From contig NZ_LT627736.1 of the NCBI RefSeq assembly GCF_900102005.1, positions 496,001 through 560,000 on the forward strand: a stretch of DNA of 64,000 nt, read 5' to 3'. The notes beneath the pieces are model-generated. The model was not told the origin of the DNA and ran no database searches. It saw only the letters and a program-made list of their open reading frames with translations. The stretch's first letter is position 1; every line of letters starts with the position of its first letter. Below are positions 49,403 to 57,404 of the stretch, one piece after another. The DNA is from Microbacterium sp. LKL04. GTDB taxonomy: Bacteria; Actinomycetota; Actinomycetes; Actinomycetales; Microbacteriaceae. Position numbers and translations under genes: made by a program.

Positions 49403-49445
49403 CCTCGATTTGCGGCAACGGATGCCGCGGCGATACCGTCGCGGT

Positions 49446-49520
49446 ATGTCCTCGCCCGCGACCCTCACCGTCTCGACGGTGGTCCGCGCGCGTCGACGTC
49501 TGGGCGACCGCCGACGCTAG
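49446..49520 (+). CDS. arginine-rich 24-residue leader peptide upstream of argC
   Basis: A 24-codon ORF (MSSPATLTVSTVV then RARRRLGDRRR) ends 90 bp before argC. TACCGT (49434-49439) is six bases before its ATG, exactly as for other leaderless genes in the window. Seven of its last 11 codons are arginine (CGC, CGT, CGA, CGT, CGC, CGA, CGC). This is the design of an attenuator leader peptide: when charged Arg-tRNA is scarce, the ribosome stalls in the arginine run and changes RNA folding ahead of the arginine genes. Too short for routine gene calling; expression is inferred. Confidence 0.6.
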   Translation: MSSPATLTVSTVVRARRRLGDRRR

Positions 49521-49579
49521 GCGACCCCTCCCGCTCTCCGTGCACGACGGATCGAGCCGCAGGTGTCGCCGTCTTCGGC
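49466..49579 (+). promoter_or_regulatory. candidate arginine attenuator RNA structures before argC
   Basis: Within and after the leader ORF, CACCGT/ACGGTG (49466-49481, loop CTCG) folds just before the Arg codons; GGTCCGC/GCGACC (49481-49509) spans them; GGCGAC occurs twice (49503-49508 inside the Arg run, 49520-49525 at the stop codon) and both copies can pair with the single GTCGCC at 49565-49570; GCCG-TCTT-CGGC (49568-49579) uses the same bases. These pairings exclude one another, so ribosome position could select between them. Confidence 0.5.
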
Positions 49580-49597
49580 CCCGCTCACTCCAGACAA

Positions 49598-49603
49598 TAA
49601 GGT
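49598..49603 (+). promoter_or_regulatory. argC-proximal -10 box
   Basis: TAAGGT lies 7 bases before the argC ATG (49611), matching the leaderless promoter pattern. argC may thus have two transcripts: one from the leader-peptide promoter (-10 at 49434) and one leaderless. No clear -35 or ArgR-type palindrome is seen. Confidence 0.55.
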
Positions 49604-49610
49604 TGAATCC

Positions 49611-50660
49611 ATGACCTTCTCGGTCGCCGTCTCCGGCGCTTCCGGCTATGCGGGTGGAGAGATCCTCCGCCTCCTCGCGTCGCATCCCGACGTCGAGATC
49701 CGCACCGTCACGGCCCACTCCAACGCCGGACAGCCGCTCATCGACCACCAGCCGCACCTGCGGTCCCTCGCGCACCTGACGCTGCAGGACACGACTCCCG
49801 AGGTCCTCTCGGGGCACGACGTCGTCTTCCTCGCCCTGCCGCACGGCCAGTCCGCGCAGTACACCGAGATGCTGGAGGACGTTCCGCTCGTCATCGACGC
49901 CGGCGCGGACCATCGCCTCACCGACCCGTCCGCGTGGAACGCGTTCTACGGGGGAGCGTTCTCCGAGCCGTGGGCGTACGGGGTTCCGGAGCTCCCCGTC
50001 GGAAGCGCGAAGCAACGGGGCGCCCTCGTCGGCGCGCGGCGCGTCGCGGCCCCCGGCTGCAACGCCTCCACCGTCTCGTTGAGCCTCGCGCCCGGCGTCG
50101 CCGCCGGCGTCATCGATCCGGGTGACATCGTCACCGTGCTCGCCGTCGGACCCTCCGGGGCGGGCAAGAGCCTCAAGACGAACCTCCTGGCGTCGGAGAT
50201 CCTCGGCACCGCCAACCCGTACGCGGTCGGCGGCACGCACCGGCACATCCCCGAGATCCGGCAGGCGCTCGCCGCGGCTGCGCCGACCGAGGTGGACATC
50301 CGCATCTCGTTCACCCCGGTGCTCGTCCCCATGGCGCGCGGCATCCTCGCCACCTCGACCGCCCCCATCGCGCACGGTGTCACCGACGCGCAGATCCGGG
50401 GCGCGTGGGAGTCCGCGTACGCCGACGAGCCGTTCGTGCACCTCCTGCCCGAGGGCTCGTTCCCACGGACGGCCGACGTGCTGGGCGCGAACACGGCCCT
50501 CCTCGGACTCGCGATCGATCGGGCGGCAGGTCGCGTCGTCGTGGTCGCCGCCGTCGACAACCTCGTCAAGGGCACCGCCGGTGCCGCGATCCAATCGATG
50601 AACATCGCCCTCGGTCTCACCGAGACGACGGGCCTGAGCGTGAACGGGGTGGCACCGTGA
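49611..50660 (+). CDS. argC: N-acetyl-gamma-glutamyl-phosphate reductase
   Basis: A 349-residue ArgC, third step of arginine synthesis (NADPH-dependent reduction of N-acetylglutamyl phosphate). NADP motif [10 protein letters not shown] at 8-17; catalytic Cys150 in [11 protein letters not shown] 49611 is chosen over an upstream in-frame ATG (49563) because of family length and the -10 box at 49598. First gene of argCJBDF; its stop overlaps argJ (GTGA). Confidence 0.95.
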
Positions 50661-51814
50661 GCGTCACGGCAGCACAGGGATTCGAGGCGGCCGGCGTCGC
50701 CGTCGGATTGAAGTCGACCGGGGCGAACGACGTCGCCGTCGTCGTGAACCGCGGGCCCAAGAAGGTCGGTGCGGCCGTCTTCACGACCAACCGCGCCAAG
50801 GCCAACCCGATCCTGTGGTCGCAGCAGGTCATCGGGGACGGCGTCGTCGAGGCGATCGTCCTGAACTCCGGGGGAGCGAACTGCTTCACCGGCACGTTCG
50901 GATTCCAGACCACGCACCAGACCGCCGAGAGGGCCGCCGAGCTCCTCGGCATCGGCGCCGGGGACGTGCTCGTCTGCTCGACCGGTCTCATCGGCACCGG
51001 TGACGAGGTCTTCCGCGGCAAGGTCCTCGACGGCGTCGAGAAGGGGGTCGCCGCCCTCTCAGCCGACGGGGGAGAGGCGGCATCCCTCGCCATCATGACC
51101 ACCGACTCCCGTCCCAAGCGCGCCGTCGTCTCGCAGGACGGCTGGACCATCGGCGGCATGGCCAAGGGCGCCGGCATGCTCGCTCCGGGCCTCGCGACGA
51201 TGCTCGTCGTCATCACGACCGACGCCGACCTGGATGCCGCGGCCGCCGACGCCGCGCTCCGCGAGGCCACACGGGTCAGCTTCGACCGGCTCGACTCCGA
51301 CGGCTGCATGTCGACGAACGACCAGGTGACGCTCCTCGCGAGCGGGGCCAGCGGCATCCGTCCGGAGCCCGCCGCCTTCGCGCTCGCACTCGCCGAGCTC
51401 TGCCTGGACCTCGCCGCGCAGCTGCAGGGGGATGCCGAGGGCGCCAGCCACGACATCACGATCGAGATCGTCGGCGCCGAGAACGAGGCGGACGCCGTCA
51501 CGGTGGGCCGCTCGATCGCGCGCAACAACCTCTTCAAGGCCGCCATCTTCGGCAACGACCCGAACTGGGGTCGCGTCCTCGCGGCGATCGGCACGACGGA
51601 TGCCGCCTTCGACCCGTACGACGTCGACGTGTCGTTCAACGGGGTCCGGGTCTGCACCGCCGGGGGACCCGACCGCCCCCGCGAGGAGGTCGACCTGACT
51701 CCCCGCGCGACGCACATCCTCGTCGACCTGCGCGTCGGTCAGGCGGCGGCGACGATCCTCACCAACGACCTGACGCACGACTACGTCCACGAGAACAGCG
51801 CCTATTCGTCATGA
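50657..51814 (+). CDS. argJ: bifunctional glutamate N-acetyltransferase / amino-acid acetyltransferase
   Basis: A 385-residue ArgJ, which recycles the acetyl group from N-acetylornithine to glutamate and may also use acetyl-CoA. It is made as one chain and self-cleaves; the cleavage site is Ala180-Thr181 in PGLATMLVV, with Thr181 becoming the nucleophile. The start is GTG 50657 overlapping the argC stop. The presence of argJ means the cyclic acetyl pathway is used and argE is not needed. Confidence 0.95.
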
Positions 51815-52710
51815 CCGACATCCAGCAGACCACGCCCGAAGAGGCCGCCGGCAAGGCCGCGGTCCTCGTCGAATCCCTGCCCTGGCTCCAGCGCTTCCGC
51901 GATCAGATCGTCGTCATCAAGTACGGCGGCAACGCGATGGTCAGCGAGGAGCTGCAGGCCGCCTTCGCCGAGGACATCGCCTACCTGCACCACGTCGGGG
52001 TGAAACCCGTCGTCGTGCACGGCGGCGGACCGCAGATCTCGACCATGCTCGACCGCCTCGACATCCCCAGCGAGTTCAAGGGCGGCTACCGCGTCACGAG
52101 CACCGAGGCGATCGGGGTCGTCCGCATGGTGCTCGCCGGGCAGATCAACCCCCAGCTCGTGTCGCGCATCAACGCGCACGGATCGTTCGCCACCGGGATG
52201 TCGGGGGAGGACGCCGGACTCTTCCAAGGACGCCGTCGCGGTGTCGTGGTCGACGGAGCCGAACACGACCTCGGGCACGTGGGCGACGTCGTCGGCGTCG
52301 ACCCGACGGCCATCCTCGACCACCTCGCCGCCGACCGGGTGCCGGTCGTCTCGTCGATCGCGCCGGACGTCGACGCACCGGGCAGCTCCTTGAACGTCAA
52401 CGCGGATGCCGCGGCCGCGGCGCTCGCCGTCGCTCTCGGCGCGGTCAAGCTCGTCATCCTCACCGACGTCGCCGGCCTCTACGCCGATTGGCCCAACCGC
52501 GACTCCCTCGTCTCGCACCTGACGGCGACGGAGCTGCGCGCCCTGGTACCGAGCCTCGAGTCGGGGATGATCCCGAAGATGCAGGCCTGCCTCGACGCGG
52601 TCGACGGCGGCGTCGATCGCGCGGCGATCATCGATGGACGCCAGCCGCATTCGGTGCTCGTCGAACTCTTCACACAACGCGGAATCGGAACAGAGGTGGT
52701 GGCGGGATGA
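51811..52710 (+). CDS. argB: acetylglutamate kinase
   Basis: A 299-residue amino acid kinase, second step and usual feedback-control point of the pathway. ATP-binding KYGGNAM is near residue 33, the VHGGGPQIS substrate loop near 70, and LTDVAGLY follows. The N-terminal helix (about 1-25) found in arginine-inhibitable hexameric enzymes is present, which suggests feedback inhibition by arginine. It overlaps both neighbours by 4 bases. Confidence 0.95.
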
Positions 52711-53951
52711 CCGCGCAGACGACGGTGAGCTGGAAGGACGACGCAGCGCGCGACCTCGTCCTCAACTCGGGGGACCGGTTCGCTCTGCTCGTGCGCGGCG
52801 AAGGCGCGCACCTGTGGGACGACGAAGGCACCCGATACCTCGACTTCCTCGGCGGCATCGCCGTGATCTCCCTGGGTCACGCGCACCCCGTGTTCGTGCA
52901 GGCCGTCGCCGAGCAGGCCGCGACGCTCGGGCACGTCTCGAACTACTTCGCCACGCCGCCGCAGCTCGGTCTCGCCGCTCGGCTGAAGCGGCTCGCCGGC
53001 ACAGGGGACTCCGGCCGGGTCTACTTCGGCAACTCCGGCGCGGAGGCCAACGAGGCCGCCTTCAAGCTCGCGCGCCTCCACGGCGGCACAGACCGCCCCC
53101 GCATCCTCGCGCTCAAGAATGCCTTCCACGGTCGCACGATGGGGACGCTCGCCCTCACCGGCAAGCCCGCCATGCAGCAGCCGTTCGAGCCCATGGTCCC
53201 GGGAGTCGAGTTCCTCGACTCCACGATCGAGGCTCTCGAAGAGGCCATCGACGACCGCGTCGCGGCGCTGTTCGTCGAGCCGATCAAGGGCGAGGCGGGG
53301 GTGCTCGATCTCCCCGAGGGCTACCTCGCGGCCGCGCGGGAGATCACCCGTCGCCATGGCGCGCTGCTGATCATCGACGAGATCCAGACCGGAGCGGGGC
53401 GCACCGGCGCATGGTTCGCGTTCCAGCACACCGGCATCACCCCGGATGCCATCACCGTCGCCAAGGGCATCGGCAACGGCATCCCGATCGGCGCCCTCAT
53501 CACCTTCGGTGCTGCGAGCGAGCTCTTCTACCCCGGCACCCACGGATCCACCTTCGGCGGCAATCCGCTCGCGACCGCTGTGGCGTCCGCGGTCCTCGAT
53601 GAGATCGAGAACGCCGGCCTCGTCGAGGCGGCGGCAGAGCGCGGCCGCCAGGTCCGCGAGGCCGTCGACGCGATCGGCTCGGCTTTGGTGGAGGGGTGCC
53701 GCGGCCAGGGGCTGCTGATCGGCGTCGCCCTCCGGCATCCCGTCGCCGGCGCCGTGGTCGCCGCTGCCCAGCAGCACGGCCTGATCATCAACGCCGCCAA
53801 CGACTCGACGATCCGTCTCGCCCCGGCGCTCACGATCGGCGACGTCGAGATCGACGAGTTCCAGACCCTGTTCGCCCGCTCCCTCGCGACCGTCGAGGAC
53901 GCCCTCATGCTCGACGACACGACCCACGACACTTCGGAGGCCTCCGCATGA
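52707..53951 (+). CDS. argD: acetylornithine transaminase
   Basis: A 414-residue class III PLP aminotransferase. The [16 protein letters not shown] phosphate-binding segment is at 108-123, [12 protein letters not shown] at 223-234 and PLP Lys253 in TVAKGIGNG. Fourth step, N-acetylornithine formation. It overlaps argB and argF by 4 bases each, so the five genes argCJBDF form one tightly coupled unit. Confidence 0.95.
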
Positions 53952-54849
53952 CCCGCCACCTGCTGCGCGACGACGACCTGACCCCGGCCGAGCAGGCCGA
54001 GATCCTCGACCTGGCCGTCGAGCTGAAGGCCGACCGCTGGAAGGAGAAGCCGCTCGCCGGTCCGCAGACGGTCGCCGTCATCTTCGACAAGTCGTCGACC
54101 CGTACGCGGGTGTCGTTCGCCGTCGGCATCGCCGACCTCGGCGGATCGCCGCTCATCATCTCGACGGCGAACAGCCAGCTCGGCGGCAAGGAGACACCCT
54201 CCGACACCGCGCGCGTGCTGGAGCGGCAGGTCGCCGCGATCGTCTGGCGCACGTACGCGCAGGCAGGTCTCGAGGAGATGGCGAAGGACACGCGCGTCCC
54301 CGTCGTCAACGCCCTGAGTGACGACTTCCACCCCTGTCAGCTGCTCGCCGACCTGCTCACGATCCGCGAGCACAAGGGCGAGCTGAAGGGTCTCACCCTC
54401 GCTTTCTTCGGTGACGGGCTCTCCAACATGGCGCACTCCTACGCGCTTGCAGGTGTCACGGCCGGCATGCACGTGCGCATCGCCTCGCCGGAGGACTACG
54501 CACCCCGTGAGGACGTCGTCGCCGACGCCGACCGCCGCGCCGCCGAAACCGGCGGATCCCTCACCCTCTACACCGACCCGAACGAGGCCGCCGCCGGTGC
54601 GGATGTCATCGTGACCGACACGTGGGTGTCGATGGGCAAGGAAGAGGAGAAGATCGCGCGCCTGCGGGATCTCGGCTCCTACAAGGTGACGCAGGAGACG
54701 ATGGCGCTCGCTCAGGACGACGCCGTCTTCATCCACTGCCTCCCCGCCGACCGCGGGTACGAGGTGGACGCCGACGTCATCGACGGACCGCAGAGCGTCG
54801 TCTGGGATGAGGCGGAGAACCGCCTGCACGCGCAGAAGGCGCTGCTGGT

Positions 54850-54871
<22 letters not shown>
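53948..54871 (+). CDS. argF: ornithine carbamoyltransferase
   Basis: A 307-residue OTCase making citrulline from ornithine and carbamoyl phosphate. The carbamoyl-phosphate motif SSTRTR is at 49-54, HPCQ lies in DDFHPCQLLAD, and the ornithine-side motif HCLPA is near residue 263. ATG 53948 overlaps argD. argG and argR, often next to argF, are absent; a membrane protein gene overlaps its last 22 bp instead. Confidence 0.95.

Positions 54872-57404
<2,533 letters not shown>

Follow-up and report, generated by a model that had tools for sequence, protein, structure and literature searches.

The window analysed here is a 64,000-nucleotide stretch of DNA from Microbacterium sp. LKL04, and contains an arginine biosynthesis operon. 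Pfam domains and gene order give the operon as argC-argJ-argB-argD-argF-DUF418-argH, with no argR among its genes. In many actinobacteria argR occupies the place between argF and argH. The gene found between argF and argH here (54850-55977) encodes a DUF418/HGSNAT-like membrane protein. The features of the operon and of the region upstream of argC are listed in Table 1.

Table 1. Features of the argC upstream region and the arginine operon, with positions in the window.
Feature	Position	Strand	Basis
-10-like box TACCGT (TANNNT), 6 bases 5' of the leader ATG	49434..49439	+	sequence
Leader ORF, 24 codons and TAG, MSSPATLTVSTVVRARRRLGDRRR	49446..49520	+	ORF reading, conservation, frame test
Hairpin CACCGT-CTCG-ACGGTG, 5' of the Arg run	49466..49481	+	sequence
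Arg run, 7 Arg in 11 codons, in two groups (R-A-RRR, RRR)	49485..49517	+	sequence
GTCTGG in the Arg run, can pair with CCAGAC (49590-49595)	49498..49503	+	minimum-energy fold
P3 hairpin, GGCGAC (49520-49525) with GTCGCC (49565-49570)	49520..49570	+	minimum-energy fold, z-scores, compensatory changes
AAGG, probable argC Shine-Dalgarno, also within the -10-like hexamer TAAGGT (49598-49603)	49599..49602	+	sequence
argC, first gene of the operon	49611..50660	+	Pfam, gene order
argJ, argB, argD, argF, DUF418 membrane protein gene, argH, mostly overlapping	50657..57404	+	Pfam, order

The ORF preceding argC starts at the ATG at 49446 and ends with a TAG at 49518-49520, leaving 90 nt between its stop and the argC ATG (49611). 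The position of the TACCGT box implies a putative leaderless transcript starting near 49446. A preliminary description of this DNA had noted the box, the Arg-rich 24-codon ORF with 7 Arg in its last 11 codons and the 90-nt gap, all of which were reproduced. It had also noted a hairpin before the Arg run and two copies of GGCGAC, an inner one in the run (49503-49508) and a stop-proximal one, together with a single GTCGCC, and these are present in the window where it had placed them. The leader motif CGNCGNNNCTAGGCGAC has an exact match in its own genome only at this locus; with up to one mismatch allowed there are 16 matches, and the same pattern reversed, as a control, gives 39.

The hairpin before the Arg run has a mean folding z of -1.71 in Microbacterium, beside -1.23 for a control stretch of argC, and of -0.05 in the other genera. 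It is at most confined to Microbacterium, not being seen in the other genera as a group, and a pausing role for it is a guess. A T-box or other known RNA family was rejected, because no covariance model reaches its cut-off: an Rfam search of the window found no family at its gathering score here (only rRNA elsewhere in the window), and the best match at the leader region was RT-15 (E 0.43; score 13.5 bits, with the cut-off at 82). No tRNA was detected within the window.

The upstream regions of argC were compared across the family Microbacteriaceae. A leader was called where an ORF of 10-60 codons starts with ATG or GTG with a TANNNT hexamer 5-8 nt upstream, holds at least 5 Arg in a 14-residue stretch near its end, and stops no more than 170 nt from argC. 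ArgC was found in 96 of 99 Microbacterium genomes, 190 of 199 genomes of the family and 142 of 149 genomes of the order; 84 other genera of the family were drawn, of which 69 were sampled. Identical upstream regions were counted once, giving 103 rows for Microbacterium, 89 for other genera of the family and 40 outgroup rows from other families of the same order. The Microbacterium rows include the best 80 of 514 ArgC loci, some titled only Actinomycetota or Microbacteriaceae; the named relatives among these 80 have 77-86% ArgC identity and are mostly Microbacterium.

A leader ORF, TANNNT hexamer included, is present in 101 of the 103 distinct Microbacterium loci and in 52 of the 89 from other genera of the family, and in 0 of the 40 from other families of the order. 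Mononucleotide shuffles of the upstream regions pass at rates of 0.0008 for Microbacterium, 0.0029 for the other genera of the family and 0.002 for the other families. The Arg-rich ORF before argC is far from chance. The two misses within Microbacterium are L078, which has no leader, and L149, which has no ORF. By genus, and leaving aside that of the window, 35 of 69 have a leader, 5 are near-threshold and 29 lack it, each sampled genus being uniform in this respect. At one locus, L216, the call is wrong, the supposed leader being the tail of pheT; this locus is among the 57 other-genus leaders in the folding, covariation and argC-start analyses, and was left out of the one-per-genus P3 test and of the inner-GGCGAC and footprint counts (157 leaders).

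The constant part of the leader is the Arg run, and the first half of the peptide drifts, as illustrated by MLSVRRTPLALAIVAVPALRRRRGDRRI (L122), MDIRTTRQSALRRRVRRARRS (L225) and MGQRITVESVQLRRVRRVRRISATSQR (L221). The short ORF with its Arg run persists among relatives despite strong drift, which is the pattern that the preliminary description had named as support for its reading.

Some variants are worth recording. L093 and L096 carry an extra stretch in the leader ORF (RFLSERSESKG and RFLSERSETKG), which resembles an inserted repeat and keeps the frame. The TAG is replaced by a sense codon (TCG type) in L024, L026, L095, L100, L106, L107, L110, L126, L197 and L221; in these the ORF continues past GGCGAC to a later stop, with the Arg run and GGCGAC kept. 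No similar Arg leader was seen by eye before argG in 23 Microbacterium loci (L255-L277, the own genome being L269), where the argG start lies close behind TAGACT/TAGAAT-like hexamers and is probably leaderless.

A frame test for which the frame need not be open was run from an ATG with TANNNT six bases upstream to the TAG of TAGGCGNC. The distance is divisible by 3 in 101 of 101 distinct cases, over 63-111 nt; these sequences are related to each other, yet comprise 14 different lengths. The distance from leader stop to argC, for which no frame is expected, splits 49/52/58 over the three frames. Codon usage within the leaders is also distinctive: CGA makes up 307 of the 1096 Arg codons in 159 leaders (one of these being the mis-called L216), and 2 of 67 in argC, argB and argH of the window, an approximately ninefold enrichment in the leaders. 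Comparison thus supports the view that the leader frame is translated, as judged from sequence.

The second conserved element is the P3 hairpin, which spans the leader stop: in TAG-type leaders the first G of its 5' arm is the last base of the stop codon. Its mean folding z is -3.12 in 99 Microbacterium leaders and -3.59 in 36 others, scored in 135 of 159 leaders, the remaining 24 being left out where the arm was not found by motif. For comparison, the stretch after P3 gives -0.50 (Microbacterium) and -0.08 (other), and the first 40 nt of argC -1.23 and -1.28. With one locus per genus (39 genera), P3 halves fold at -27.4 kcal/mol with their own partner versus -21.8 when swapped, and 0 of 300 permutations are as low; the hairpin fails to close in 2 of these 39 folds, L196 and L219, the latter with mis-picked arms. 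In the same 39 genera, 8.51 of 10 arm positions are paired versus 8.09 when permuted (1 of 5000 permutations). Arms slid by 3 bases still give 6.3-6.7 pairs of 10, and arms slid by 1-2 bases 2.6-4.6. Pair 5 does not covary, and 14 of 44 distinct arm pairs have A-C there. Arm duplex energies give a z of -4.0 outside Microbacterium and -2.8 within. The pairing between stop-proximal GGCGAC and GTCGCC, for which covariation had been predicted, therefore stands across genera, but within Microbacterium alone permuting the arms gives no significant result (318 of 2000), while the half-swap is clear there (-32.4 own versus -28.5 swapped). From GTCGCC to the argC ATG there are 42-49 nt in 29 of the 36 leaders of other genera, and 43-81 nt in the sampled list for Microbacterium, which is biased because the GTCGCC arm was picked as the one nearest 45 nt before argC.

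The preliminary description had proposed that the two GGCGAC copies compete for the one GTCGCC. The inner copy is retained in 19 of 101 Microbacterium and 4 of 56 other leaders (23 of 157), and was rejected as a conserved competitor. Other pairings of the Arg run were also considered. An RNAalifold consensus of 38 Microbacterium leaders pairs the Arg run with GGYGTCGCC, with P3 absent and a covariation term of only -0.39; outside Microbacterium the pairing of the run with GTCGCC shows no covariation (z 0.9). The GTCTGG of the run can pair with CCAGAC, which lies directly 5' of the argC ribosome-binding site (RBS). Covariation between run and RBS has a z of -8.2 in Microbacterium and is not significant outside it (z -1.5). 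The Microbacterium signal shrinks to -3.2 or -1.6 when permuted within 27 or 41 clusters, and the first part of the leader ORF also covaries with the RBS there (z -5.0), which points to shared ancestry as a source of the run:RBS signal. These data are suggestive of a pairing between run and RBS in Microbacterium, with a signal that depends on clade.

We now consider the start of argC itself. An SD-like motif (AAGG, GAGG, AGGA or GGAG) is found in 144 of 147 distinct leader-bearing argC starts, and 13 of the 144 (12 without the mis-called L216) have no TANNNT hexamer. Given that the SD is constant in these loci, argC with a leader is probably read from the leader mRNA. A leaderless argC start at 49611, raised in the preliminary description, is unlikely, since argC usually has a Shine-Dalgarno sequence. 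Where no leader was called (33 distinct family loci), TANNNT occurs without an SD in 21, an SD without TANNNT in 10 (including L190 and L206, which are near-threshold leaders), both in one and neither in one; to judge by these motifs, argC without a leader would often be leaderless in the family. Leaderless-type argC starts with TAGATT-type hexamers before the ATG are frequent in the leader-less genera, for example L180, L200, L201, L205 and L213.

Arginine biosynthesis is a textbook case of control by a repressor, ArgR. The search for ArgR used a single model, PF02863 (the ArgR C-terminal domain), which has no match in the one own genome, in 99 Microbacterium genomes or in 199 genomes of the family (85 genera). 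The model is positive in 8 of 14 control genomes, C. glutamicum included. In a draw from the order it matches 138 of 149 genomes, the 11 without a match being all 10 members of the family and one genome of 0.8 Mb; outside the family it matches 138 of 139. The lack of ArgR in the family adds weight to the reading of the leader as an attenuator. Neither a leader nor a PF02863 match was found in 29 of the 69 sampled genera, among them those of L180, L200, L201, L205 and L213. In two loci from other families of the order, L236 and L251, a very long inverted repeat with TGATCATGCACG lies between pheT and argC, and could be a terminator or a regulator site.

The evolutionary distribution of the leader was examined with a quick tree of ArgC and ArgJ (105 rows, SH-aLRT support only). 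Rows with a leader or near-leader (63 of the 95 from the family) need 11 state changes. A clade with support 93 takes in 92 of the family rows and leaves out three that have no leader, L195, L198 and L216. The gene immediately upstream of argC in these three rows is pheT, whose last codons form a P3-like hairpin that includes the stop codon, with a 3' arm of GTCGCC or GCCGCC located 43-51 nt before argC. A pheT end was found by regular expression within 350 nt upstream of argC in 14 of 53 leader loci. It may be that P3 at the pheT stop is older than the leader, and the leader end may derive from the pheT end, though sequence support for this derivation is weak: leader ends have a mean identity to 37 pheT ends of 0.448 for 20 extended-type leaders (sorted with a permissive pattern, which admitted L216 as well) and 0.394 for 37 others, the same sets score 0.378 and 0.309 against 22 control gene ends, and the control ends themselves score 0.349. 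We tentatively suggest, as a scenario with slightly less than an even chance, that the family lost ArgR and that about half or more of its genera gained a leaderless leader with Arg codons and a hairpin derived from the pheT 3' end, so that a ribosome at the pheT stop beside argC was made into an arginine sensor. If this holds true, bacterial arginine biosynthesis would have its first known operon under a leader-peptide attenuator.

The effect of ribosome position was modelled. According to a simple footprint model, a ribosome that has the first Arg of the run in its A site does not cover the P3 5' arm in any of the 157 leaders, and the same holds for about two thirds of all Arg codons of the run. 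The number of expected P3 pairs is 3.6 (Microbacterium) or 5.3 (other) with the ribosome on the Arg run, and 0.00 or 0.03 with the ribosome at the stop. The modelled arrangement has the geometry of a switch set by ribosome position. For the free RNA, the Arg run is expected to form about 5.5 pairs with the 32 nt preceding argC (5.64 outside Microbacterium), and with the ribosome at the stop 0.97 (Microbacterium) or 1.36 (other) run:RBS pairs remain. With the ribosome at the second Arg of the run, 1.3 remain in Microbacterium.

On the basis of these observations, we consider it very probable that the argCJBDF..H operon has here an attenuator that is read by the ribosome and senses arginine, taken as a class that is not tied to a single output. 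Comparison of sequences supports its likely components (a translated frame that holds the Arg run, a start of leaderless type, P3 and an SD before argC), together with the lack of ArgR. Ribosome stalling, its sign (starvation being on) and its output are what we infer from them. A leaderless transcript would begin at the ATG of the Arg-rich ORF. When Arg-tRNA is plentiful, the ribosome would reach the stop, cover the 5' arm of P3 and then leave, and the strand with the Arg codons would be free to pair next to the argC RBS, giving low expression. When Arg-tRNA is scarce, the ribosome would stall on the first Arg codons and hold the Arg strand, so that P3 could form ahead of it and argC would be expressed. 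In the other genera more run:RBS pairs remain in the stalled state (4.07, at the second Arg of the run) than with the ribosome at the stop, which is a misfit with the proposed release. The attenuator proposed in the preliminary description is thus partly supported, through the conserved Arg-run ORF and P3 covariation across genera, but not in its competition of two GGCGAC copies; the terminator of classical transcription attenuation is lacking.

Several forms of output can be weighed against these results. We favour control of argC translation, tentatively and at somewhat less than even probability, with Rho-dependent or U-less termination a close second that is quite possible; an effect on mRNA stability is improbable, and some other step is unlikely, if a little less so. 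Sequestration of the SD by equilibrium folding at three ribosome positions was found unsupported, the predicted accessibility hardly shifting: for the argC SD and start it is 0.52/0.55/0.57 (free/stalled/at-stop) in Microbacterium and 0.48/0.52/0.55 elsewhere, and for the SD alone 0.53/0.47/0.47 and 0.49/0.51/0.53. An intrinsic terminator was rejected: the window region has no terminator-like site, and only 3 of 159 leaders carry a U-rich tract (5 T in 8) downstream of P3 and ahead of argC. Transcription attenuation in a different form is a rather unlikely reading, but has points in its favour. It holds that when arginine is plentiful the polymerase would be stopped before argC, either by Rho, acting at the C-rich stretch after P3, or by a hairpin lacking U residues, and that at low arginine stalling on the Arg codons would let P3 form and protect elongation. 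The stretch from P3 to the SD is indeed C-rich (45% C and 26% G in Microbacterium, 44% and 21% elsewhere), so that Rho action is conceivable, and has the low folding bias given above; in the predictions P3 forms only while no ribosome occupies the stop; and in the Salmonella speF leader, according to the available text of PMC6386406, leader translation governs Rho termination. Against it, besides the scarcity of U-rich tracts and terminator-like sites, no conserved partner was seen that would draw the 3' arm of P3 into a terminator, and the tight spacing of P3 and argC outside Microbacterium is more natural for control at the RBS.

The remaining explanations dispense with sensing or with the leader altogether. 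The ORF might be translated constitutively, with P3 as the means by which it sets a basal level of argC expression. GC-rich DNA is generally rich in Arg codons, and L195, L198 and L216 have P3 without the ORF, the pheT 3' end being in its place; but the Arg run is constant while the first half of the peptide drifts, shuffled sequences pass at only 0.08-0.29%, CGA is strongly enriched, and the ORF is absent from the 40 loci of other families, which together make this very improbable. It is hardly more likely that argC has its own leaderless promoter (TAAGGT) and that the leader is a separate small transcript. Of 147 distinct leader-bearing argC starts, 134 have a suitably spaced TANNNT hexamer, and argC without a leader is often of this type in the family, but it is the SD that is the constant part, including in the starts that have no such hexamer. 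Least likely of all, and highly improbable, is a protein regulator (a divergent ArgR or another) that binds the DNA here, with the ORF incidental. The conservation of TCAATAAGGT before argC in many loci, and the use of the C-terminal model alone in the ArgR search, would allow for it; against it stand the lack of PF02863 throughout the family with working controls, and the nature of the conserved features, which include codons, a frame and paired RNA arms. The attenuator reading is of wider interest: an apparent ribosome-based sensor is carried by Microbacterium and 35 of 69 sampled further genera, in a family in which no ArgR was found. The leader is also a defined and easily mutated element for studying how leaderless leader peptides act where there is no intrinsic terminator, and an obvious candidate for a switch that responds to arginine.

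It is useful to compare the leader with known systems. Control of argC by ArgR and ARG boxes has the same target operon and signal, and differs in that the sampled family has no ArgR_C match. Among the matches listed for the open literature (titles and the starts of abstracts, most subscription papers being outside), no report of a leader peptide for arginine biosynthesis was found, and the preliminary description likewise knew of no established one of this type in this group. The available text of Seliverstov et al. (2005; PMC1262725), which covers actinobacteria including Leifsonia xyli, gives no conserved RNA structure upstream of arginine operons, and that of PMC8632094 and PMC10117765 mentions no arginine-biosynthesis leader ORF.

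Classical attenuators are described for Mycobacterium ilvB1 and for trp of Corynebacterium and Streptomyces in the available text of PMC13236596 and PMC1262725. The leader described here resembles these trp and ilv attenuators in having a peptide rich in the product amino acid, and in that stalled and at-stop ribosomes give different RNA structures (here in a model), but unlike them it has no U-tract terminator hairpin before argC. In the speF leader of Salmonella, two sensing Arg codons of orf34 alter the folding of the downstream mRNA, according to the available text of PMC6386406. The Arg codons of a leader ORF are likewise the proposed arginine sensor here, with the folding of the downstream mRNA predicted to change; the Salmonella case differs in having two sensing codons, a target that encodes ornithine decarboxylase (speF, with its start 516 nt into the mRNA), and a gammaproteobacterial host. 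Together with the speF leader, the nearest functional relatives are the polycysteine leaderless ORFs of mycobacteria. These are reportedly leaderless short-ORF attenuators, attributed to Canestrari and colleagues in 2020, in which an RNA structure is said to sequester the downstream RBS and to be relieved by stalling. For such sequestration, the present case offers a pairing signal in Microbacterium only, which is clade-dependent, and an SD accessibility that hardly changes. Candidate leaderless polycysteine ORFs in mycobacteria are given in the available text of Shell et al. (2015; PMC4633059). The likeness is considerable: both are actinobacterial and leaderless, the present one as judged by sequence, with a run of codons for one amino acid near the end of the ORF, before the genes of its pathway. 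The differences are that here the amino acid is arginine, the family is another one, and a conserved hairpin extends across the stop of the uORF.
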